Part shown: positions 1 through 32,765 of the stretch, in pieces
Layout: each line of letters begins with the position of its first letter
How positions within the stretch are numbered: the first letter of the stretch is position 1
IMG/VR virus record: IMGVR_UViG_3300014819_000032
Span: 1 to 33,910 of that record
Strand: one strand, 5' to 3'
Origin: a virus
Length of the DNA: 33,910 nucleotides
Made by a program: the position numbers and the translations under genes
The notes under the pieces: model-generated
The model's database searches: none
What the model was told of the DNA's origin: nothing
Seen by the model: the letters and a program-made list of their open reading frames with translations, nothing else

Positions 1-2070
1 TACAAGGTACACAGGGAACACAAGGCGTACAGGGTACACAGGGAACACAAGGCGTACAGGGCCGACAGGGAACACAGGGCGTACAGGGCCGACAGGGAAC
101 ACAAGGGACACAGGGACCTCAGGGGACACAAGGGACACAGGGATTGCAAGGAGTACAGGGCCGACAGGGATTACAGGGATTACAGGGATTACAAGGAACA
201 CAAGGCGTACAGGGTACACAGGGAACACAAGGCGTACAGGGCCGACAGGGAACACAAGGGACACAGGGACCTCAGGGGACACAAGGGACACAGGGATTGC
301 AAGGTGTACAGGGCCGACAGGGATTACAGGGATTACAGGGATTACAAGGAACACAAGGCGTACAGGGCCGACAGGGAACACAGGGCGTACAGGGCAGACA
401 GGGAACACAAGGCTTACAAGGAAGGCAGGGAACACAGGGCTTACAAGGAAGGCAGGGAACGCAAGGTGTGCAAGGAAGGCAGGGAACGCAAGGTCCGCAA
501 GGACTACAAGGTTTACAAGGACTACAAGGTTTACAAGGACTACAAGGTTTACAAGGACTACAAGGTTTACAAGGACTACAAGGACTACAAGGTGTACAGG
601 GATTTCAGGGTATTCAAGGTCTTGATGGATTCGCAGTAGCTCAAGGTATGCAAGGGACACAAGGCAGACAGGGTGTTCAAGGTTTACAAGGCAACCAAGG
701 AGTAGCAGGAATACCACAATCTTGGACATTGATTACTTCAAGTACTTTAGCAGGAAGTGATACAAGATATATAGCGAATACAAGTAGTGGACCATTCACA
801 CTTACATTACCTGCCAGTCCAGTGTTAGGACAAGTAGTTATTGTAACAGATGGAAATAATTGGGCAGCTAATAATTTAACAGTTGCAGGTAATGGTTCTA
901 CTATTCAAGGATCTTATACTGACCTGATTCTTAATATACAAGATATAACAGTTGAAATGGTGTATGACGGTACTACGTGGTTAGTAACAGCAACACTAGG
1001 TCAACGAGGCATTCAAGGACAAAGTGGTACTCAAGGATTGGGTGGCTTTCAAGGAGCACAGGGTACACAAGGATTTCAAGGTAGACAGGGTACACAAGGT
1101 CCTACAGCAGCGCAAGGTACACAAGGATTACAAGGATTACAAGGATTACAAGGAAGACAGGGTACACAAGGTCCTACTGCGTCACAAGGGACTCAAGGAC
1201 TACAAGGACTACAAGGACTACAAGGACTACAAGGACTACAAGGACTACAAGGACTACAAGGACTACAAGGTCCTATAGCAGCACAAGGCACACAAGGACT
1301 ACAGGGATTACAGGGATTACAGGGAAGACAGGGTACACAAGGTCCTACTGCATCTCAAGGCACTCAAGGCACTCAAGGCACTCAAGGATTTCAAGGTCTA
1401 CAGGGATTACAGGGATTACAGGGATTACAGGGACTACAAGGTCCTATCGCAGCACAAGGTACACAAGGTACACAAGGTACACAAGGTACACAGGGATTAC
1501 AAGGCAGACAAGGTACACAAGGTAATCAGGGAGTACAAGGAACTCAAGGTATACAGGGCTTTCAAGGTATACAGGGCAGACAGGGATTACAAGGACCTAC
1601 TGCTGCACAGGGCGCACAAGGTTTGTACGGCATTCAAGGAAATCAAGGTATTCAAGGTATTCCTGGCACAGTAGCAGCACAGGGTATGCAGGGTCCTCAA
1701 GGACTACAAGGAGTTCAGGGAACGCAAGGAACACAAGGATTACAAGGACCTACTGCTGCACAGGGCGCACAGGGAACACAGGGACTACAAGGTAATCAGG
1801 GGGTACAGGGGAGACAGGGATTACAAGGTCCAACTGCTGCACAGGGCGCACAGGGAACACAGGGACTACAAGGTAATCAGGGGGTACAGGGCAGACAGGG
1901 ATTACAAGGTCCAACTGCTGCACAAGGTGCACAAGGAACACAGGGATTACAGGGTTTAGGTACTCAAGGTGCACAAGGAACACAAGGTCTACAAGGCCCA
2001 ACTGCTTCACAAGGAACACAAGGTATACAGGGACTTAATGGATTATTTGCGGGACAGGGCACACAAGGTG
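1..2070 (+). repeat. Tandem repeats encoding Gly-X-Gln triplets
   Basis: Nested tandem repeats occupy about 1-640 and 1030-2070 inside the fibre gene. The 9-nt unit ggactacaa runs about eight times near 1196-1268. An 18-nt unit (ggactacaaggtttacaa) recurs about four times near 499-575. A unit of about 80 nt containing ccaactgctgcacagggcgc is repeated near 1747-1930. A longer block at about 30-150 recurs almost exactly at 210-320. Near-identical codon choice among copies shows recent expansion at the DNA level. Confidence 0.9.
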
Positions 2071-3200
2071 TACAGGGCCTAGCAGGAGCAGGAGGAGGTG
2101 GTAATGTAAGTGGTCCAGCAAGTGCCAGTGGTAGTCAAATAGCATACTTTACAAGTTCTACAACAATTGACACAGTACCAACTTTAATTTATGATCAACC
2201 TAATGGTTATATTGAGGTAAAATCGAAGGATTCATTTGATGGCGGTGTCATAAAGTTCTACAGTACTGGAAATACAAATTATACAATGTTTGGGCGTAAA
2301 AATAATGGTAGCAATGTAAGTCTTTGGGTACCTAACACAGCAGGCACAGATGGACAAGTATTATCTGTTATAAATTCTTCAACAAGTGAATCTCAATTAG
2401 GTTGGGCAACTGCGGCAACATACTATAACACAGGAAATTATAGAATTCCTATTTATGATCCTGATAATTCAAAATTAAGATTTTATGGACCTACCATAGA
2501 TATTGATAACGTTATTACAACACGTAATTTTTGGGCTTCAAATACTATAGGTGGGGTAGATGATCCTTACATAAGAGTTTCTGCACCATCTGCAAGGACT
2601 TATACACAATTTCAAAGAGCCGCAGGTGGCGCAAATACTACACTGTATTTGCCGACAGCCAGCGCAAATACTAGTTACGGTAGCTATTTGGGTGCAATTG
2701 ATAGTCAAAATCAACTACAATGGATGTTTGGTTTATGGGGCGATGCTGTACGAAGCGATACTACAAGTGCTGACTTTTATTATCCAACTTGGGTTAGAGA
2801 CTATTTTAACGGCGCAAATAATATTGTATATATTTCTTCAAGCACTAGTAAGTTTGGTTATAGGCCAAGCACAGGTACATTACAAGTTACTGTATTAACT
2901 CAAACTTCTACTATACAAGATAAAGAAAATCTAAGACCTATTACAAATGCACTCTCAACTTTAAATCAATTTAGTACATATTTATATGACAGAAAAGATG
3001 GGTCAGCCTCAAACGTTCCTGGTCTAATTGCAGAAGAAGTAGCTAATATCTTTCCTGAACTAGTTACTTATACAAGTAATAACATACCAACAGGGGTTAA
3101 CTATACACAATTTATTCCGTTATTAATTGAAGGAATTAAAAACCTAACAGAAAAAGTTAAGTTATTGGAAACTGAAATTAATAATCTTAAAAATCAGTAA
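1..3200 (+). CDS. Collagen-like tail fibre with C-terminal S74 chaperone domain (5' partial)
   Basis: The frame is open from base 3, so the true start lies left of the window; no start should be inferred from the internal TTG at 144. Most of the first 2070 bases encode Gly-X-Gln triplets (X mainly L, T, V, R, P), a collagen-like rod with Gln in the third position. A small globular beta-rich segment interrupts the rod at about 700-1010. After a Gly-rich hinge (about 2085-2110) comes a non-repetitive adhesin-like region. The last 97 residues (from 2907) match the intramolecular chaperone/Peptidase_S74 family: S-T-I-Q-D-K-E-N, then PGLIAEEV and a C-terminal coiled coil. The Ser-Lys spacing of five fits the known autocleavage dyad. 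It is inferred to be a trimeric receptor-binding fibre; its exact place on the virion is unknown. Confidence 0.88.
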
Positions 3201-9671: not shown

Positions 9672-10172
9672 ATGTTTACTGATAAGTTTGGTCAAATTAT
9701 TTTAAATGAAAATGACTTGTGTGAATTTTACTACACAAGAATTGGGCATGATATTAAAACATGCTTAATAGACAACAAAATAGAAAATATACTAGAGTTG
9801 GATAATTTTCCAAATTTATCAGAATATATAGAATTAGATTGTACTATTGAAGAATTTGATAACTTACAACAAGATAATTTGAAAATGCCAAATTATTATA
9901 AAACTTTTGATATAGCAGAATATGTGTTAAAGCTTTGTAAAACTGAACAGGAATTACAAAGGGCAGCGCATGAATTATTATTATTTCAAGAAAAAAACAT
10001 GTTTGATTTATTGCGTTATTTAAAGTATTTGGTGGATATAATTAAAGAAAATAATATTGTTTGTGGAGTTGGTAGGGGTAGTAGTGTAGCTAGTTTTGTA
10101 TTATTTTTAATTGGGGTACATAAAATAAATTCATTATATTATGATTTACCTATAGAAGAATTTATTAAATAA
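9672..10172 (+). CDS. Truncated DnaE-like protein (DNA polymerase III alpha 'GRGS' segment)
   Basis: A 166-residue protein whose last 70 residues match the palm-entry region of C-family DNA polymerases: a helical run (ELLLFQEKNMFDLLRYLKYL), then IVCGVGRGSSVASFVLFLIG (GRGSS at 134-138), then the equivalent of the IDPL...F region. It stops just before the place where PDxDxDF with the catalytic aspartates should follow, so it cannot be a polymerase by itself. The same GRGS region is present again in the larger polymerase at 31025-32725, so this is a paralogue and not its missing half. It may bind nucleotides or regulate the polymerase. It has no Shine-Dalgarno and may be translated from a leaderless mRNA. 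Confidence 0.7.
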   Translation: MFTDKFGQIILNENDLCEFYYTRIGHDIKTCLIDNKIENILELDNFPNLSEYIELDCTIEEFDNLQQDNLKMPNYYKTFDIAEYVLKLCKTEQELQRAAHELLLFQEKNMFDLLRYLKYLVDIIKENNIVCGVGRGSSVASFVLFLIGVHKINSLYYDLPIEEFIK

Positions 10173-23549: not shown

Positions 23550-24224
23550 ATGAGAGCAACAGATTTAATGGAAATGGGTACTGTAGCTGGAGCAGTTGCT
23601 ACAGTAGCGAAGCCTATGGGCGAAACACAAAAACGTGGCGTTAAAGTTGCTGGGTTACAACCAGCAGAAAAAGTTATGACTGGGAAGTCAAAGAAAAAAG
23701 GCCCATACCAAAATAGTATAAATGAAGGCAAAATGAAAGATTTATCATTAGACCTACGCAGTGATAAAGATGGTTTATCCGATATTGAATTTAAAAAGAA
23801 ATATGGTAAAACTAAAGAAGAAATGCGTAAATCTCTTAAAGCTAATAAAGAAAAAAAAGTTAATGAAGCTGAACTAAGTGAAGATGATGTTATATTAGTG
23901 CCAGGGCAAGGTAGGAAATTTAAGACTGGGTTTGTTCCAAAAGGACAAAGTAGAGTTGACCATGAAGTAGAAATGGCACGTAGTGATTTATTTCAAGCAG
24001 CTAAAAATGCTCAACAAGTATATAAATTAATAAAAAATTTAAGTGAAGATGATGGATTAGAAGGTTGGGTACAGGAGAAAATAATCAAAGCAAACGATTA
24101 TTTAAATTCAGTCCGTGAATATTTAGAACATAAAACTTATATGCAAGAAATGTCCGGTGGTGTCATTGCAGCAGGTGGTGTTGGTGAAAACCTTGATAAA
24201 TCAAAGAAAGTAAGTAAAAAATGA
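23550..24224 (+). CDS. Predicted head-packaged protein with capsid-targeting-like N terminus
   Basis: A 224-residue basic, Lys-rich protein read from ATG 23550 (agga 8 nt upstream; the TTG at 23544 has worse spacing). It begins MRATDLME, similar to MRAKEFITE and MRAIEFLQE of two genes downstream and to the capsid-targeting sequence of T4 internal protein III (MKTYQEFIAE). Hydrophobic-x-Glu sites suitable for a gp21-type prohead protease follow at LME (6-8), INE (57-59), VNE (104-106) and LSE (109-111). Modules between them include AGLQPAEKVMTGKSKKKGP (34-52) and a helical region VDHEVEMARSDLFQAAKNAQ (126-145). Likely loaded into the prohead and processed there. It overlaps the polyprotein by 4 nt. 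Confidence 0.68.
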   Translation: MRATDLMEMGTVAGAVATVAKPMGETQKRGVKVAGLQPAEKVMTGKSKKKGPYQNSINEGKMKDLSLDLRSDKDGLSDIEFKKKYGKTKEEMRKSLKANKEKKVNEAELSEDDVILVPGQGRKFKTGFVPKGQSRVDHEVEMARSDLFQAAKNAQQVYKLIKNLSEDDGLEGWVQEKIIKANDYLNSVREYLEHKTYMQEMSGGVIAAGGVGENLDKSKKVSKK

Positions 24225-27200
24225 GTTTTATACTAAAAGGTTTAGTTGATGATAAATCAGCTAAACAAAATAAATTAGTTATATTTGATATTGATGATAC
24301 TTTGGTTTATACTCAAACAAAAGTTCATGTAATTAAAGATGGTCAAATTGTTACTAGTTTAAATAGCCATGACTTTACACATTATAAGTTAAAACCAGGT
24401 GAGAGTTTTGACTTTGGAGATTTTAGAAACGCCCGTGAATTTTTTGATAATTCTAAACCTAATATACCAATGATGAATCAATTAAAAAGAGACATTAATA
24501 CTGGTAATAAAGTTGTCATGGTTACTGCCCGTGCTGATTTTGATGATAAAGAGTTATTCTTAGATACATTTCGTAAGTTTGGTGTAGATATTAATAAAGT
24601 ACATGTATATCGTGCTGGTAATAGCAATCAGGGGACAACTGAAGAACGGAAAAAACTAATAATTAAAAAACTATTAAATAATGGAAAATATGATAAAGCG
24701 ATAATGTACGATGACGCAAAGCCTAATTTACATACATTTATGGAATTAAAAAAAGAACATCCTGAAACAAGATTTTATGCTTGGCATGTAAGTTTAGATG
24801 GTAATGCTACTGAGTATATGCGTGAGCAAGCTGAATATCAAGGTGTGGGTAAAACATTAGTTAGTGAGGATGATGAAAGCACAGGCATGGAGTGGGAAGA
24901 AAAACTTATGGATGCTTGGGCACCCTATGCAGCCAAGTATATGGCTAAAGTAGTAAAGCAAGCTTTCAACACCCTTTATCCTGATGTAAAATTAAAAGTT
25001 TGGGCAGAAGCCGAAGGGGTTTCAGCTACAACTGATCTTACAAGTGATGATGTAAAAGCTGATGTGTTTGGTCAATATGGTAAAAAAGATTGGGAATGTA
25101 ATTTCTTTTGTGGACCTTTATATAATGAAGCCGATGATCGTAAATACCTTGAACTAATGGTTGATGATGCAGCTAGCGGGAGTTATCCTGGTGTATGGAA
25201 GATAATAGTTAGTGAATGGAAAAGATGGGCTACAAGCCAACTTAAGAAAACTGGTGCTGATGATGTTTGTTTTAGTGTAAATGAAGATATGAGCGGTGGT
25301 GCGTGGGGCAAAATTGCTAATGCTGTTGGTATCAAATTTATAGCACATGACCTAGATGAAGGTGTGGCGGAAGGCGAACAAATGAGTAAAAGTAAAGCAC
25401 TCAACGCACTTAGAAAACAACTAATGAATGAATATCCGTATATGAAATGTGAGAATTTGGAAGAATTTAAACAAAGATTGCAATGGCTCAGTGAGGGCAT
25501 GTTGAAGAATCACTTGACCAACGATAAAAATTACATAATAAATCAAGAAGAAATTGCTCTATACCAAGAATATCGTAAAAAACGAGAGCATATTCAACAG
25601 GGATCGCAAGGTGTAGCGGAAGAGTTAAATTATGATAGAGAACCTTTGTATCATGCTACATTAAAAGCATTTGAGCCTAGTATTATAAAATCAGGACTGT
25701 TACCTGGCGGTAATTTAAGAATGTTTGACTGGAGTGACAAAAAGTATGTATACCTTAGTAACTATCCTGACATAGCACGAGATTTTGTTGATCCTGGAGT
25801 AATAGAACCAAGTCAAGAACACGAAGACCAAATATTTAAATTAATGAAACAGGGCGGTGTTATATTTAAAATAGATCAAAACAAATTAGATAGAAAGTTG
25901 TTAATGTCTGATCCACATTTTCAAAGTGACGCAGATGATGGGGCAGAAACTTATGTATATAGTGGTATAATTCCACCAAGTGCTATAATAGGAAAAGAGT
26001 ATTTTAGAATAGATGAATCAGTTGGGGTGGAAATGGTATTGGACAAGGTGCATGGTATGAATGAAAGTAATAGATTATATAAGTATCATCAAAAAGTTAT
26101 TGCCGAAGCTGAAATGAAACCATCTAAAGCAGGAGATATGGCAAAACAAATTGCTCAAAGCACTAATGGAATTTATTCCCGTCAATATGGTCGTACACAT
26201 ACCGACGGTTATGGTAGAAGGAGCAAAGATCCAAATGATTATGTAAGATACCAAGATAAAGACAGCTATGATGATGCCATGAATTGGCTAGAAACTAAAG
26301 GCAAAAAGATTTATTATCGTAATCGTGACAATCAATTACGAACAGCTATACAAATTGGCAGGTTTATTGTGGAACCACGTATTGTTACGCAAGGTCCATT
26401 CAGTGACAACCCAATAACCACATACTCAGTAAGCGTAAGATCAGCCAAAGCTATAGGCAGCGGTGGTAGAACTATCGCAGACATAACTGACCAACAAGCA
26501 GCAGCATTGCATGACATCGCAATAAGTAGAGAAGAAACAGCCATGCAAAAGTTGCAGGCAATGATGAATGTATTCAAAGGTGAAGAGGATTTAAAAAATA
26601 TTATTGATCGCAGTAAAAAGATTAGGCCCGACGATAAAGCTAAACTAGATGCCATTATTGCAGGAGCAAAGAATTTTAAAGATTTTGATGAGGGTATATC
26701 TGAAAGTAATAGATTATATAAGTATCATCAAAAATTAAGAAAACAAGCTGGTTTACCTGACCCACAAGAATACTTAAGAATGCGGAAACAAAAGTTAATT
26801 GAACTAATATTACTTAATGATCCTAACCAAGAATTAAACGTATTAGAATTAGCAACTATACCTGAGTTAGAAGAAATATATCAAATGGTTAAGAAAGTTG
26901 ATGAAGATAATACATATCAATTTGCTGCTGAAAAGACTCCAGTAATTAGTCCATACGCAGGTGTCAAAGATAGTCAATTTCGTGGTGCGATTGGTGAAGG
27001 TATCAGACAAATGTTTGAAGAACCAAATCAAAGTCCAACTGATGCAGGGTACCAAGAAGGTGGTTGGAGAGTAATGAATAAAGACGGAATGAATGAAGAT
27101 TTACGCAAATGGTTTAAAGAAAAATGGGTAAGATTTGGACCAGATGGTAAGATTCGCGGTGCATGTGCTAGGGGTGATGATAGTGAGGGTAAACCAAAAT

Positions 27201-28141
27201 GTTTGCCACAAAGTAAAGCACATAGCTTAGGCAAAAAGGGTCGTGCTAGTGCTGCTGCTAGAAAACGTAGAGAAGATCCTAACCCAGAGCGTAGCGGCAA
27301 GGCAATTAACGTTGCTACAAAAAAGAAAAAATCAAATGAGGGAAGTAATATGTATGAAGCTAGTGATATCTCAGGTTTATTGGCAGCTAGTCATTTAAAT
27401 AAGTCGTTTATTGTGACTGCTATTACAGCAGAAGGGCAAAAAAAGAAATTTCGTGTTAAAGCACAGAATGAAAGAGTTGCTAAAGAAAAGTTTCTAAAGC
27501 ACCATAGTATGGCAAAGATACTTAATGTAAAAGAAGCAAATTTTAATGAGTCTACTAACGGAAATGATAGTAAATCCAAAGCAGTAATGAAAATACAAAA
27601 AATGTTAAATGACAAGTTTGATGCCAACTTAGATGTTGATGGAGTTATGGGAGATTTAACAATTAAATCGATTATGCAATTTTTACCCAAAGCTAGTAAA
27701 AGTTTAGCAGATCAACCTAATAAAAATACAAGAGTGCAAGGAAAGCAAGAAAAAGAAAATATAGCAGAAGAAAAATGCCCACATTGTAGTGGTCCAATGT
27801 TTGAAATGAGTTTAATGAATGAAAAGAAAGATGCTTGTTATTACAAAGTTAAAAGTCGCTATAAAGTATGGCCATCAGCATATGCCAGTGGTGCTTTAGT
27901 AAAATGTCGTAAAAAAGGTGCTAAGAATTGGGGCACTAAATCTGAAAGTTCAATTATGAAGGGTTTGCAAAGTGAAGGACAAATTTATAGCACTGGTGGC
28001 GGAGCAGGACAAGCACAGCGTTATTATACTCCAAAAGATAATTTAGGCGAAGAACAACTTGATGAATTAAAATGTTGGCCTGGTTATAAGCGTAAAAAAG
28101 GAGTTAAAGCAGGAGCTCCAGGTAGTTGTGAGAAGATATAA
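24221..28141 (+). CDS. Giant modular polyprotein, predicted head cargo with HAD and ART-like domains
   Basis: A 1306-residue protein. Module 1 (17-205) is a HAD hydrolase: IFDIDDTL (21-28), VTAR (101-104) and IMYDD (161-165). Module 2 (222-378) is unrecognised. After GVAE (381-384) comes a short helical module; after a second GVAE (464-467) a module with PLYHAT (475-480) and KYVYLSNYPDIARDF (508-522), like KptA/ADP-ribosyltransferase folds. Two modules begin SNRLYKYHQK (616, 829), each after a G-hydrophobic-x-E site. Then a basic DUF5872-like stretch (960-1022), a small domain (1050-1105), a peptidoglycan-binding-like stretch (1120-1155), CPHC (1186-1189), a basic Cys module DACYYKVKSRYKVWPSAYAS (1204-1223), and after QLDE (1279-1282) a CWPGYKRKKG tail. 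Hydrophobic-x-Glu punctuation suggests prohead-protease processing. Start ATG overlaps the previous stop. Confidence 0.72.
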   Translation: MSFILKGLVDDKSAKQNKLVIFDIDDTLVYTQTKVHVIKDGQIVTSLNSHDFTHYKLKPGESFDFGDFRNAREFFDNSKPNIPMMNQLKRDINTGNKVVMVTARADFDDKELFLDTFRKFGVDINKVHVYRAGNSNQGTTEERKKLIIKKLLNNGKYDKAIMYDDAKPNLHTFMELKKEHPETRFYAWHVSLDGNATEYMREQAEYQGVGKTLVSEDDESTGMEWEEKLMDAWAPYAAKYMAKVVKQAFNTLYPDVKLKVWAEAEGVSATTDLTSDDVKADVFGQYGKKDWECNFFCGPLYNEADDRKYLELMVDDAASGSYPGVWKIIVSEWKRWATSQLKKTGADDVCFSVNEDMSGGAWGKIANAVGIKFIAHDLDEGVAEGEQMSKSKALNALRKQLMNEYPYMKCENLEEFKQRLQWLSEGMLKNHLTNDKNYIINQEEIALYQEYRKKREHIQQGSQGVAEELNYDREPLYHATLKAFEPSIIKSGLLPGGNLRMFDWSDKKYVYLSNYPDIARDFVDPGVIEPSQEHEDQIFKLMKQGGVIFKIDQNKLDRKLLMSDPHFQSDADDGAETYVYSGIIPPSAIIGKEYFRIDESVGVEMVLDKVHGMNESNRLYKYHQKVIAEAEMKPSKAGDMAKQIAQSTNGIYSRQYGRTHTDGYGRRSKDPNDYVRYQDKDSYDDAMNWLETKGKKIYYRNRDNQLRTAIQIGRFIVEPRIVTQGPFSDNPITTYSVSVRSAKAIGSGGRTIADITDQQAAALHDIAISREETAMQKLQAMMNVFKGEEDLKNIIDRSKKIRPDDKAKLDAIIAGAKNFKDFDEGISESNRLYKYHQKLRKQAGLPDPQEYLRMRKQKLIELILLNDPNQELNVLELATIPELEEIYQMVKKVDEDNTYQFAAEKTPVISPYAGVKDSQFRGAIGEGIRQMFEEPNQSPTDAGYQEGGWRVMNKDGMNEDLRKWFKEKWVRFGPDGKIRGACARGDDSEGKPKCLPQSKAHSLGKKGRASAAARKRREDPNPERSGKAINVATKKKKSNEGSNMYEASDISGLLAASHLNKSFIVTAITAEGQKKKFRVKAQNERVAKEKFLKHHSMAKILNVKEANFNESTNGNDSKSKAVMKIQKMLNDKFDANLDVDGVMGDLTIKSIMQFLPKASKSLADQPNKNTRVQGKQEKENIAEEKCPHCSGPMFEMSLMNEKKDACYYKVKSRYKVWPSAYASGALVKCRKKGAKNWGTKSESSIMKGLQSEGQIYSTGGGAGQAQRYYTPKDNLGEEQLDELKCWPGYKRKKGVKAGAPGSCEKI
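26062..26095 (+). repeat. Direct repeat copy 1 inside the polyprotein gene
   Basis: 34 bases identical to 26701-26734, coding E-S-N-R-L-Y-K-Y-H-Q-K at a module boundary. Identity extends through synonymous positions. Confidence 0.92.
26701..26734 (+). repeat. Direct repeat copy 2 inside the polyprotein gene
   Basis: 34 bases identical to 26062-26095, about 640 bp downstream and in the same frame. The sequence after it diverges at once. Confidence 0.92.
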
Positions 28142-28142
28142 T

Positions 28143-28553
28143 ATGAGAGCGAAAGAGTTTATTACCGAAACCATAGTAAAACCAGTAGATCCTATTACTA
28201 AAATTCAGCGTGATAAACCACGTCAACCACAAACACATTTAAGTAAATTAAAAAAGCCAAGTGAACCTGCTGCTAAAATAAGTTTTGCACATGAGTTAGA
28301 AAAATACAAACGATTACCTGAGGGTAATGATGAAGAATTTCACACAGGTGGTAGTCCAGGAATACCTTTCCCTACAACATATGAACAAGAATATAAACCA
28401 TTTACCCATAAAGGACAACGAAGAATTACAGCAATGACTAATGAAGAACAAGTTGATGAAAAATGGAGTAATAAATATAAGCGTAGTATAAATTGTAATA
28501 ATCCAAAAGGGTTTAGTCAAAGAGCACATTGTCAAGGAAGAAAAAAGAAATGA
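28143..28553 (+). CDS. Small basic head-cargo protein with capsid-targeting-like N terminus
   Basis: A 136-residue, strongly basic protein starting MRAKEFITE (ATG 28143, one base after the polyprotein stop; the GTG at 28128 would spoil the motif). I-T-E at residues 7-9 is a good gp21-type cleavage site. The middle is Pro/Lys-rich and probably disordered. After EEQVDE (101-106) comes a Cys-containing basic tail, KYKRSINCNNPKGFSQRAHC (111-130), ending GRKKK. The polyprotein ends in the same manner (EEQLDE then a basic Cys tail), so both proteins belong to one modular family. DNA binding inside the capsid is inferred from charge. Confidence 0.72.
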   Translation: MRAKEFITETIVKPVDPITKIQRDKPRQPQTHLSKLKKPSEPAAKISFAHELEKYKRLPEGNDEEFHTGGSPGIPFPTTYEQEYKPFTHKGQRRITAMTNEEQVDEKWSNKYKRSINCNNPKGFSQRAHCQGRKKK

Positions 28554-30144: not shown

Positions 30145-30735
30145 ATGAGAGCAATTGAATTTTTACAAGAAAGTCCTATTACCGAAGCACCTGAGATCGA
30201 GTTAGCCAAGCGCCTACCTAGTTTATCTAAGCACAATTATAACACAATAGATAAGCTAATGCGTGAAATAAGTAAAAAGCATAGCATAACTGGAAAAGCC
30301 CTTCATGATTTATTTGTTAGAAAGTTTCGTAAAACACCAGATAGTTGGATTAAGAGTAAATTAGATGAAACTGACGAAGATAGTGGAATCGCAGATGAAG
30401 TGCAGAAATTTGGTCAATGGGCTAGTAAAATACTTAAATTACGAAATCCACCTGCAATTAAATTAAGCCAAGATACTGGTGAGGCGCAAACAAATCATCA
30501 TACAGGAAGACATGTGGATGGTGAAGATAGTGTTTGGGTATATGTAAGAAATAGAAATTTAGTTGATATTCTTAGAACAGTATTCCACGAACTTGTACAT
30601 GTAAGACAGGGTGAATTGGGAAAGATTAAACCTGGTTCTAGTTATCCAGGTAGTCCAATTGAAGCCGAGGCAGATGTTTTAGCAGGCAAGTATATTAAAA
30701 TATACGGTAAAGAAAACCCACATATTTTCCAATAA
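30145..30735 (+). CDS. Predicted head-packaged zinc metallopeptidase-like protein
   Basis: A 196-residue protein starting MRAIEFLQESPITEAPEIE, a capsid-targeting-like N terminus with two hydrophobic-x-Glu sites (LQE 7-9, ITE 12-14; the second followed by Ala as in T4 gp21 sites). A helical region (30-110) follows. The catalytic motif is HELVH (148-152) within TVFHELVHVRQGE, and E173 or E175 of SPIEAEAD is a candidate third zinc ligand, as in gluzincin-type enzymes. The target could be a host protein after injection or a virion protein in the head. No Shine-Dalgarno. It ends abutting a convergent gene with no terminator between. Confidence 0.72.
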   Translation: MRAIEFLQESPITEAPEIELAKRLPSLSKHNYNTIDKLMREISKKHSITGKALHDLFVRKFRKTPDSWIKSKLDETDEDSGIADEVQKFGQWASKILKLRNPPAIKLSQDTGEAQTNHHTGRHVDGEDSVWVYVRNRNLVDILRTVFHELVHVRQGELGKIKPGSSYPGSPIEAEADVLAGKYIKIYGKENPHIFQ

Positions 30736-31035
30736 TTAATTACTTTTTATTTCATCAAATGATTTAATAATTTCTAATTGAGAAGGGTCATGTTTTTTAT
30801 TATATGGAACAGGAAGTGATTGCCATTCTTGTTCACTAATATCACAAGCTATAATTACCTGATACTTATGCCCATCACTTGTATATAGTTCAATGGTATC
30901 TAGTCCAATTACTGATTTACTTGTTTTTATTAATGCTTCACCTAAGGCTCTGAGTGCCTGTTTTTCTCCAACAATATATGCTCTACCATTTGGTTCTGCA
31001 TGATTATGCATATGTAATCTTGATTTAACTTGCAT
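30736..31035 (-). CDS. Hypothetical protein downstream of the DnaE-type polymerase
   Basis: A 99-residue protein (MQVKSRLHMHNHAEPNGRAY, then IVGEKQALRALGEALIKTSK, then TIELYTSDGHKYQVIIACDI). The ALRALGEALIKT helix and TIELYTSDGHKYQVII strand pair look like a small alpha/beta domain. It overlaps the end of the polymerase gene by 11 nt on the same strand, so it is probably cotranscribed and translationally coupled. I do not recognise the family. A polymerase accessory role is suggested only by position. Confidence 0.68.
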   Translation of the reverse strand: MQVKSRLHMHNHAEPNGRAYIVGEKQALRALGEALIKTSKSVIGLDTIELYTSDGHKYQVIIACDISEQEWQSLPVPYNKKHDPSQLEIIKSFDEIKSN

Positions 31036-32725
31036 TTAATAAATCTTTCAAACTTAGTCGTTTATGTTTCTTAACTGTAACATATTCTGTGTTGTTTTTG
31101 TAGCCTAATTTACCCACACCCCATACTATTGGGTAATCATGTAAACTAACCGCTTTATCTAATATAACATCAATATAACGATTATTACCTGTTCCTAAGG
31201 TAACGAATGTAATATATTCTTTTGGTTTACTTTTAAATACACGATAATTGGCTACTAGTCCACAAAACTCTACCTCACCTGGTTTCCTCAACTCAGTACA
31301 AAAAGGTAAAAACTTTTTACTATGCCAATGACCCTGTGTCATTAATTCATTGATTTCATTGCCTTCGTACACACTTGTTATTGCGCCTGCCAATTTGGCC
31401 TCATGATGGTATACCCAACGGCTATAACTACCTTGGCAATGTTTCAAAACAGCACGCCAAAACTTTTCAGGATTATGTGCTTTTTGATACGCAATTGCCC
31501 ATATCAAACGTCCTAAATTAATCGCATGTGCTCTACATAATCCAAAATTACTTAATTCTGTTAATGCATAAAAAACTTCTTCTTTGTTTTCATGGTTACC
31601 TATCAAATCCATAAACTCAAATATTTTTTCTTCATTACGTTTAGCAAAGGCACGACGCCACATATCTGCTTCATATTGGTTACAATCTAATAGTTTACTA
31701 ATTAACATGATTGCATCATCTTCAAACACAATAGTATTATCAAATGTGTCTTTGCTCCAATCACGGAAAAAACTGGCTTTGCGTCTACCTTGTGTTGCAA
31801 CTGGTCTAATTAATGCTGTAGCTAATACACAATCTTCACGTTTGGTTGGTTTTATAGCCCTAAATAATCTACGCATTGCAGGACTCTCTGCTTGTGTAAC
31901 TCCCAAAACATTACCACTACGTAATAACTCAGCAGTTTTTTCATCATATTCAGGATAGTCCAACAAGTTTTTTGTAGGGTCTATTTCATAGAGTTGAGAT
32001 AGTCCTCGATTAGATAATATGTCAATTTTAAAATGTTCTAAATCTTCAATTTCATATTTGTCTAATAGTATTTGATTTTCTGCATTGATTAGACTTTTCG
32101 GGACAGCACGATCAAATATTAATATACCACCACAATGTTTACTGATACAACGTTTTTTACCTAATAATTTATTAACCAAGCGTTTTGCTTCATCAGCAAA
32201 TTCTGGTACAACTTTGTCTAAGTCTATATTTCTAGGTAATCTACCCTTCGCACCATATCGTTTTGCTGCCTCACGTATAGCACTTTTTTCTTTATAGGTA
32301 ACATAATTGCTTACCCGTGCTGATTGACCTTTCCAATGATTAAAGATACGATTCATTACTGTTTCTTGTTGATAATGCGGGAAGTCTAAATCAATGTCTG
32401 GTAAATCATCACGTTTTGGGTTCATAAAACGTGCTAACGGTATTTTTTCTTTAATTGGGTCAACATCACTGATACCAAGTAGCCAACACAATAAACTACT
32501 TCCTGCACTACCACGAGTCATATGCGGTATATCTTTGGTTAGTTCCAATATTTCTACTACACGTAAAAAATGTTTTGCAAAACCTAATTTTGCTATGAGT
32601 TCTAGTTCTTCTTCTAACCTATTTTCGTATTCTATTTCGTTTGGTAAATTTCTTGTAAATTTCTTTATTAATGTTTCTAGTTCTTTATATCTACTTTCCA
32701 TATTTGTGCCTATTGTATGTGCCAT
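31025..32725 (-). CDS. Compact C-family (DnaE-type) DNA polymerase lacking the PHP domain
   Basis: A 566-residue protein from ATG 32725 (a TTG nine codons upstream is less likely). It matches bacterial DNA polymerase III alpha from the palm onward: HMTRGSAGSSLLCWLLGISD (68-87), LPDIDLDF with catalytic D112 and D114, FKIDILSNRGLSQL with the third Asp (D235), LGVTQAESPAMRRLFRAIKP, ALIRPVATQGRR, EADMWRRAFAKR, and GLCRAHAINLGRLIWAIAYQ. The C-terminal FCGLVANYRVFKSKPKEYIT is OB-like. The N-terminal PHP exonuclease domain is absent and the length is half of E. coli DnaE. All three active-site aspartates are present. Probably active, role unclear since a gp43-type polymerase starts at 33726. Confidence 0.88.
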   Translation of the reverse strand: MAHTIGTNMESRYKELETLIKKFTRNLPNEIEYENRLEEELELIAKLGFAKHFLRVVEILELTKDIPHMTRGSAGSSLLCWLLGISDVDPIKEKIPLARFMNPKRDDLPDIDLDFPHYQQETVMNRIFNHWKGQSARVSNYVTYKEKSAIREAAKRYGAKGRLPRNIDLDKVVPEFADEAKRLVNKLLGKKRCISKHCGGILIFDRAVPKSLINAENQILLDKYEIEDLEHFKIDILSNRGLSQLYEIDPTKNLLDYPEYDEKTAELLRSGNVLGVTQAESPAMRRLFRAIKPTKREDCVLATALIRPVATQGRRKASFFRDWSKDTFDNTIVFEDDAIMLISKLLDCNQYEADMWRRAFAKRNEEKIFEFMDLIGNHENKEEVFYALTELSNFGLCRAHAINLGRLIWAIAYQKAHNPEKFWRAVLKHCQGSYSRWVYHHEAKLAGAITSVYEGNEINELMTQGHWHSKKFLPFCTELRKPGEVEFCGLVANYRVFKSKPKEYITFVTLGTGNNRYIDVILDKAVSLHDYPIVWGVGKLGYKNNTEYVTVKKHKRLSLKDLLNAS

Positions 32726-32765
32726 AAGTTTTTTATTTATTTGGTAAAACAACGAACCAAAAGAT

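Follow-up and report, generated by a model that had tools for sequence, protein, structure and literature searches.

A candidate multi-cargo head-protein precursor in a T4-type phage, with prohead-protease-like motifs and a DNA seam at its module joints

What does a phage gain from a protein of 1306 residues that is built as a string of unrelated modules, and why do those modules meet at one kind of short motif? The question is raised by a 33.9-kb viral fragment (33,910 nt, IMG/VR record IMGVR_UViG_3300014819_000032, ~33% G+C; this whole stretch is referred to as the window), in which a plus-strand open reading frame (ORF) occupies positions 24221–28141. A first-pass annotation of the window had read this gene as a polyprotein that is cut within the phage head at hydrophobic-x-Glu sequences (phi-x-E) into internal proteins injected with the DNA. 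The ORF has exactly the extent and length that were claimed, relatives of it were found, and the interpretation has gained support from joint phi-x-E motifs beyond chance expectation, T4-type leaders, capsid processing sites of the same form and homologues in cyanophage virions. We consider it probable that the gene encodes a precursor of multiple head-carried proteins, cut by a gp21-type protease and subject to cassette exchange at its joints.

The protein begins with a capsid-targeting-like leader, MSFILKGLVDD (residues 1–11; 24221–24253), where relatives have MSSIIKGLVNE. All modules lie on the plus strand. The leader is followed by a HAD module that ends in LVSE (213–216; 24254–24868), an alpha/beta module (217–384; 24869–25372) and a helical module (385–467; 25373–25621), both ending in GVAE (381–384 and 464–467), and an ADP-ribosyltransferase-like (ART-like) module with an LYHAT motif that ends in GMNE (612–615; module 468–615; 25622–26065). 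The first of two SNRLYKYHQK modules (616–828; 26066–26704) ends in GISE (825–828) and the second (829–895; 26705–26905) in VDE at 895. The next is a module beginning DNTYQFAAEKTP (896–959; 26906–27097), which also stands behind phi-x-E in a number of further contexts and ends in GMNE (956–959), followed by a basic Cys-containing module beginning DLRKWFKEKWVRFGPDGK (960–1046; 27098–27358; phrog_23735/727), which ends in MYE at 1046, and by a module beginning ASDISGLLAASH (1047–1110; 27359–27550), which elsewhere follows VAE or VDE and here ends in FNE at 1110. A peptidoglycan-binding-like module (1111–1183; 27551–27769) ends in NIAE (1180–1183); a zinc-ribbon-like CPHC piece, LMNE (1198–1201) and a DUF5872-like segment (together 1184–1282; 27770–28066; phrog_727) end in QLDE (1279–1282), and a C-terminal LKCWPGYKRKKG module (1283–1306) completes the gene with its stop codon (28067–28141). 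The joints at VDE895, GMNE 956–959, MYE1046 and FNE1110 were revealed by relatives; the others had been listed in the first-pass annotation, and each is present where it was placed.

The motif is more frequent in the window protein than its composition predicts. There are 31 [LIVM]-x-E tripeptides against 19.1 ± 3.6 in shuffled sequences; when the middle residue is restricted to small ones (phi-[ASTNGD]-E), the count is 19 where shuffling gives 7.1. Neither phi-x-D nor phi-x-x-E is enriched in the same comparison. Because an excess in one protein could be accidental, the test was carried over to relatives. One IMG/VR scan gave 126 stretches that encode relatives, and 365 phage records, chiefly of T4-like cyanophages, contain some module; the window protein thus belongs to an extensive family of modular proteins encoded by uncultured phages of the T4 type. 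Module order and combinations differ among these relatives. In 52 non-redundant relatives phi-x-E lies near 154 of 237 module starts (71 ± 7 expected) and 129 of 194 module ends (58 ± 7 expected). When the enlarged set was searched for clean insertion seams, defined as two stretches that adjoin in one protein and lie 30–350 residues apart in another, phi-x-E was found at 91 of 109 distinct seams (83%, compared with 36% at random positions), although these counts are not fully independent since modules recur across comparisons. The motif itself varies at a given border: the joint ahead of QFAAEKTP-type modules reads VDE, VAE, VSE, VGE, FNE, VEE, IKE or VKE, a variation that points to phi-x-E itself as the object of selection.

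The nearest relative, G001, is a 130-kb contig with 97–99% identity in the next two downstream genes. Its polyprotein is colinear with that of the window, and the differences are insertions or replacements of whole modules, each bounded by phi-x-E. The HAD module is missing, such that MSSIIKGLVNE continues directly into DEAAGM where the window has ...KTLVSE followed by DDESTGM; the first SNRLYKYHQK module, for which our scan found no relative, is also missing, with GMAE in place of GMNE...GISE; an additional module of 57 residues is present between GVAE and DVAE; and the peptidoglycan-binding-like module is replaced by another between two phi-x-E-type sites. Immediately ahead of the ART-like module stands GVAE in the window and, across the family, QGVAE, QDVAE or AMAE; in L130 it forms a separate gene with MRAAEIILE immediately ahead of it. 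Similarly, the WSxKYK module lies behind MRSNEFISE in one gene and behind VAE or LDE joints in others. The last Glu of a leader and the Glu of a joint are thus interchangeable.

At the GVAE joints conservation extends to the DNA. The consensus over 377 GVAE joints is AGCAAGGTGTGGCGGAAGGC, an element of ~20 nt that includes rare codons. QGVAE joints are encoded by CAAGGTGTGGCGGAA in 33 of 47 cases, even though GTG accounts for 14% of Val and GCG for 9% of Ala codons in these genes. The wobble positions of Gly, Val and Ala carry 1.5–1.7 bits of information, compared with 0–0.1 bits at those of Val and Ala where VAE in these loci lacks the Gly. We counted the 12-nt core 336 times in 3.3 Mb of retrieved sequence, from which four permuted controls are absent. 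The element itself served to retrieve part of this DNA, and the count therefore gives no density; frame and context are informative all the same, and in 297 of 303 distinct contexts the core lies within a long ORF in the frame that encodes GVAE. In the window the element encodes GVAE381–384 (25358–25374, plus strand, one mismatch to CAAGGTGTGGCGGAAGG) and GVAE464–467 (25607–25623, plus strand, two mismatches). The second copy is where the 57-residue cassette of G001 is inserted, flanked there by CAAGGTGTGGCGGAAGGC and CAAGATGTGGCGGAAGCG; the empty site in the window is CAAGGTGTAGCGGAAGAG. An IMG/VR scan with a 16-mer of the element contains a few chance matches (out of frame in L225, L242 and L256), and bacterial genomes gave single matches in unrelated organisms, about the number expected by chance in 257 Gb.

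Recent exchange between phages has occurred at this element. Where similarity between contigs begins or ends, 21 of 64 endpoints at ≥97% identity fall on the seam (0.7 expected), as do 58 of 227 at ≥93% identity (2.2 expected). Twelve cassettes have a copy of the seam at each end in both of the contigs compared, with flanks at random identity, the clearest being a 186-bp cassette shared by L069 and L149 at 99.5% identity. Exchange at a DNA site that stays constant from one cassette border to the next is the pattern of integron-like or site-specific cassette systems, and the GVAE joints seem to be recombination seams as well as protease sites, although ordinary homologous recombination of phages at the repeat might suffice with no dedicated recombinase. 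The DNA of LDE, MNE and ISE joints is less conserved, so only part of the joints serve as seams. We give an even chance to the stronger proposal that the 20-bp seam is at once a recombination border and the code for a prohead-protease site, through which phages would trade in-frame cassettes of ~50–170 residues, each automatically packaged, freed and delivered. Rare-codon pausing as an explanation for the element was judged unlikely because its common codons are fixed too and the exchange breakpoints lie on it.

Many members of the family begin with constant leaders, either MSxILKGLxNE or MRAxEFIxE, the latter resembling the capsid-targeting sequences of T4. All 31 distinct MSxI[LIM]KG[LI] leaders lie at or near an ORF start and are followed by many unrelated sequences, and the M[RKN]..EF[ILV]xE leader is N-terminal in 113 cases and internal in five (among 21,548 internal Met residues). 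The internal protein IPIII of T4 has the leader MKTYQEFIAE, to which MRAKEFITE and MKTYQFITE of the family may be compared. Flanking genes in the window had been credited with capsid-targeting-like N termini, and these are borne out in MRAKEFITE at 28143, where a plus-strand gene (28143–28553) ends with a WSxKYKxSIN...GFSQxAHCxG module, and in MRAIEFLQE at 30145, which opens a metalloprotease-like gene with an HELVH motif (30145–30735, plus strand), separate from the polyprotein. The gene upstream (23550–24224, plus strand) begins MRATDLME, and its relatives begin MKITQIISE, MKFSEISE or MKFNEIFE.

Stand-alone genes of the family also carry leaders. The HAD module forms separate genes with MRAxEI-type leaders in L003, L004 and L226, and the leaders ahead of this module are without a scissile Glu, in the polyprotein (LVDD) as in the stand-alone genes (MRAKEIQPKK, MRATEISPRK, MRAHEFEP). 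KptA-like and GH19 domains occur in leader-bearing stand-alone genes as well. Leader-type N termini (MRATEFITE, MRAIEFINE and the looser MRYRDFRPE) stand ahead of GH19 chitinase or GGACT domains in L012:4725-5603, L042:14294-15667 and L131:5875-7005, which suggests that an endolysin-like enzyme may be head cargo.

A search for the protease and its sites had been suggested as a check, and it was made in relatives. A gp21-type protease (PF03420) lies near a gp23-type capsid protein (PF07068) in all five relatives of 249–525 kb in the first set, with a gp22-like scaffold gene between the two, and both genes are present in five of nine large contigs that bear the DNA seam. One contig with both genes, G003, shares 26 kb of synteny with the window, mostly at 46–86% identity, and from this we infer protease and capsid genes for the window phage as well, beyond the 33.9-kb fragment. 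All nine capsid proteins that were read have phi-x-E just ahead of the conserved core, at the expected processing point, and their alignment to mature T4 gp23 starts directly after it. The predicted sites (LLAE|S, LLSE|S, YLAE|S, LLE|N, LKE|N, HLAE|S) match the joint motif in form, so that the objection that the capsid site might have a different specificity is passed as far as sequence tells. Ratios of observed to expected phi-x-E are 0.24 in mature capsid proteins, 2.14 in the scaffold, 1.66 in the polyproteins (2.75 with a small middle residue) and 1.18 in other proteins.

Homologous modules are present in purified virions of two cyanophages, S-CREM2 and S-SZBM1. Mass spectrometry of virions of S-CREM2 purified in caesium chloride found ORF160 with seven unique peptides (PMC10665884 Table 3), although the authors warn that non-structural proteins may have co-purified (PMC10665884). 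Its product, gp160, contains three modules of the polyprotein family, including a relative of the basic Cys-containing DLRKWFKEKWVRFGPDGK module, and has the joints LEE|KKNCWPGY and ISE|GKKDACYHKVK. Leader-type F[LIVMFN]xE N termini occur in 5 of 50 virion-detected ORFs of this phage compared with 0 of 151 undetected ones (p = 0.0008). In S-SZBM1 the virion proteins include 139 and 140 (PMC9146016 Table 1), of which 139 holds a CWKGY module and 140, a cytidylyltransferase, begins MRFRQFIIE|A. The N-terminal stretch of S-CREM2 gp160 (L135:33343-34236) matches the major head protein family phrog_696 (E 4.8e-10), with FTGAAAPEGPVAGYDPLM closely resembling FTGAAAPGGPNAGFDPVM in the N-terminal arm of that phage's own capsid protein; this is possibly another route for docking into the capsid.

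The modules differ in how well they can be named. The HAD assignment holds, as a polynucleotide-kinase-type phosphatase (phrog_415, 5e-12; PF03767, 8e-5). The DUF5872-like segment scores below the curated Pfam cut-off and matches phrog_727 at 2e-24, while the peptidoglycan-binding-like call has a weak match (phrog_2649, 7e-4). The ART-like call is likewise weak: there is a match to the H-box of Tpt1/KptA (E 0.019), and AlphaFold models of the ART-like and alpha/beta modules have low mean confidence (pLDDT, the predicted local distance difference test, of 56 and 55). Foldseek gave no significant match with either of these models, which are too poor, nor any PDB match for the alpha/beta module (residues 217–384), so the ART likeness stands on the LYHAT motif and the Tpt1/KptA match. 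An embedded peptidase was not recognised in the window protein with Pfam, PHROGs or NCBIfam, nor a defence family with PADLOC.

On the scheme that we infer, the leader would carry the entire chain into the prohead core, where a gp21-type protease would cut behind phi-x-E at the joints and free up to a dozen products of 18–216 residues, among them a HAD phosphatase, an ART-like enzyme and small basic Cys-rich proteins. These would remain in the head alongside the DNA and accompany it into the host. The gene would evolve by exchange of cassettes along the joints: the constant 20-nt DNA, coding for the cut site (Q)GVAE(G), would permit gain, loss and swapping of cassettes in frame between phages, with each incoming cassette bringing its own cut site, moved either by ordinary recombination between copies of the repeat or by an enzyme dedicated to the task.

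Several observations weigh against this scheme. The window leader ends in LVDD where MSSIIKGLVNE of G001 has the scissile Glu. Ten residues of T4 IPIII are enough for targeting, and Asp at position 10 prevents processing but not targeting (PMC9026906); the window leader is accordingly predicted to target but to stay uncut, and the first cut, behind the leader, is probably missing. phi-x-E is also frequent within modules, for example at 332, 404, 425 and 885, so that cutting at joints only would require shielding by folding. Several seams are x-N-E with no hydrophobic third residue, and the dependence among seam counts described above reduces their weight. A gp21 gene was not detected in 19 of 29 contigs tested, most of them fragments; its absence from two that exceed 260 kb (343 and 266 kb) is unexplained unless these contigs are incomplete. 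The latter two, G023 and G024 (contigs of L191 and L193), have an in-frame GVAE seam and no match to gp21 or gp23.

The many internal motifs would sit comfortably with a protein packaged and injected whole, its Glu-rich linkers left uncut or cut by host proteases after entry, as with effectors of the polyvalent type. Multidomain effectors that carry ART, ParB, phosphatase and peptidase domains have been described in phages (PMC5512222), and several of these domain types are found in the polyprotein family. Such an effector would leave unaccounted for the joints' capsid-site form and scaffold-like enrichment and the interchangeability of leader and joint Glu, and the window protein has no recognised peptidase of its own; we regard this alternative as unlikely. 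Scaffold-like motif density, together with the small size and basic character of many modules, would suit an expendable filler of the prohead core that is chopped like gp22, gp67 and gp68, mostly lost before DNA packaging and without a role in the host. We find that very improbable, given the enzyme-like motifs conserved in retained modules (HAD, ART-like), the GH19 and KptA-like domains of leader-bearing stand-alone genes and the persistence of homologous proteins in mature virions. The joints might instead serve recombination or translation only, through pauses at rare codons, with their likeness to protease sites a by-product. The fixed rare codons GTG and GCG of GVAE joints fit this, but LDE, MNE, ISE and NIAE joints have no DNA element and keep phi-x-E while their synonymous codons vary, the common codons of the element are fixed as well, and the motif also occurs in leaders and capsid proteins, where the element is absent, which makes this the least probable of the three.

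Elsewhere in the window, the metalloprotease-like gene at 30145–30735 lies near genes for Dps and for a nuclease with a signal-peptide-like N terminus, and is a conserved neighbour of the polyproteins in G001 and G003. A DnaE-type DNA polymerase III alpha subunit is represented by two separate pieces at distant positions, one on each strand (31025–32752, minus; 9672–10172, plus); the larger is 99.7% identical in G001 and was not found in G003 or G019. Positions 1–3200 encode a probable tail fibre with collagen-like (QGxQG)n repeats, whose repeat part has ~49% G+C compared with ~33% for the contig.

If a head-cargo precursor is indeed encoded, a single gene with one leader would supply, through one protease, an entire set of proteins carried in the head, and the common DNA seam would explain fast reshuffling of that set between phages, plausibly directed against host defences. 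The reading rule of a leader followed by phi-x-E joints would allow many 'hypothetical proteins' of uncultured T4-type phages to be read as predicted injected proteins whose ends are defined. A search of open-access text found no description for DNA phages of a polyprotein cut by the prohead protease, nor of such a seam.

The proposed precursor may be set beside several known systems. Polyvalent proteins of phages and conjugative elements are predicted to be delivered together with DNA and have been likened to RNA-virus polyproteins (Iyer 2017, PMC5512222). The window protein resembles them in joining several unrelated effector-type domains in one chain (the HAD domain supported, ART-like and peptidoglycan-binding-like domains weak, plus basic modules); they contain embedded peptidases or are uncut, whereas its joints fit a prohead protease acting in trans. 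Ejection proteins of the giant phages SPN3US and phiKZ are packaged in the head, and a protease related to gp21 cuts them on the C-terminal side of Glu, but at A-x-E or S-x-E, the reported cuts, save those of the protease itself, remove N-terminal propeptides, and a multi-cargo chain is not described (PMC10052503, PMC5694885). The phrog_727, phrog_3477 and DUF5872 families of T4-like cyanophages contain identical kinds of small basic modules, in shorter proteins (~300–460 residues in the two cases read) annotated as hypothetical. The proposed working is like that of IPI, IPII, IPIII and Alt of T4, in which a short N-terminal leader ending in phi-x-E, cut by gp21, precedes unrelated cargo; the T4 internal proteins are diverse anti-host proteins with the leader as their sole common part (PMC3012670, PMC9026906). 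Relatives of the window phage likewise have a gp21-type protease, a gp22-like scaffold and gp23, and leaders ending in a protease site are found in the family and in both downstream leader genes, although the window leader itself ends in LVDD. Where T4 has one cargo per gene, however, the window family places many cargoes behind one leader, with cut-type sites between them and, at some joints, a conserved DNA seam.

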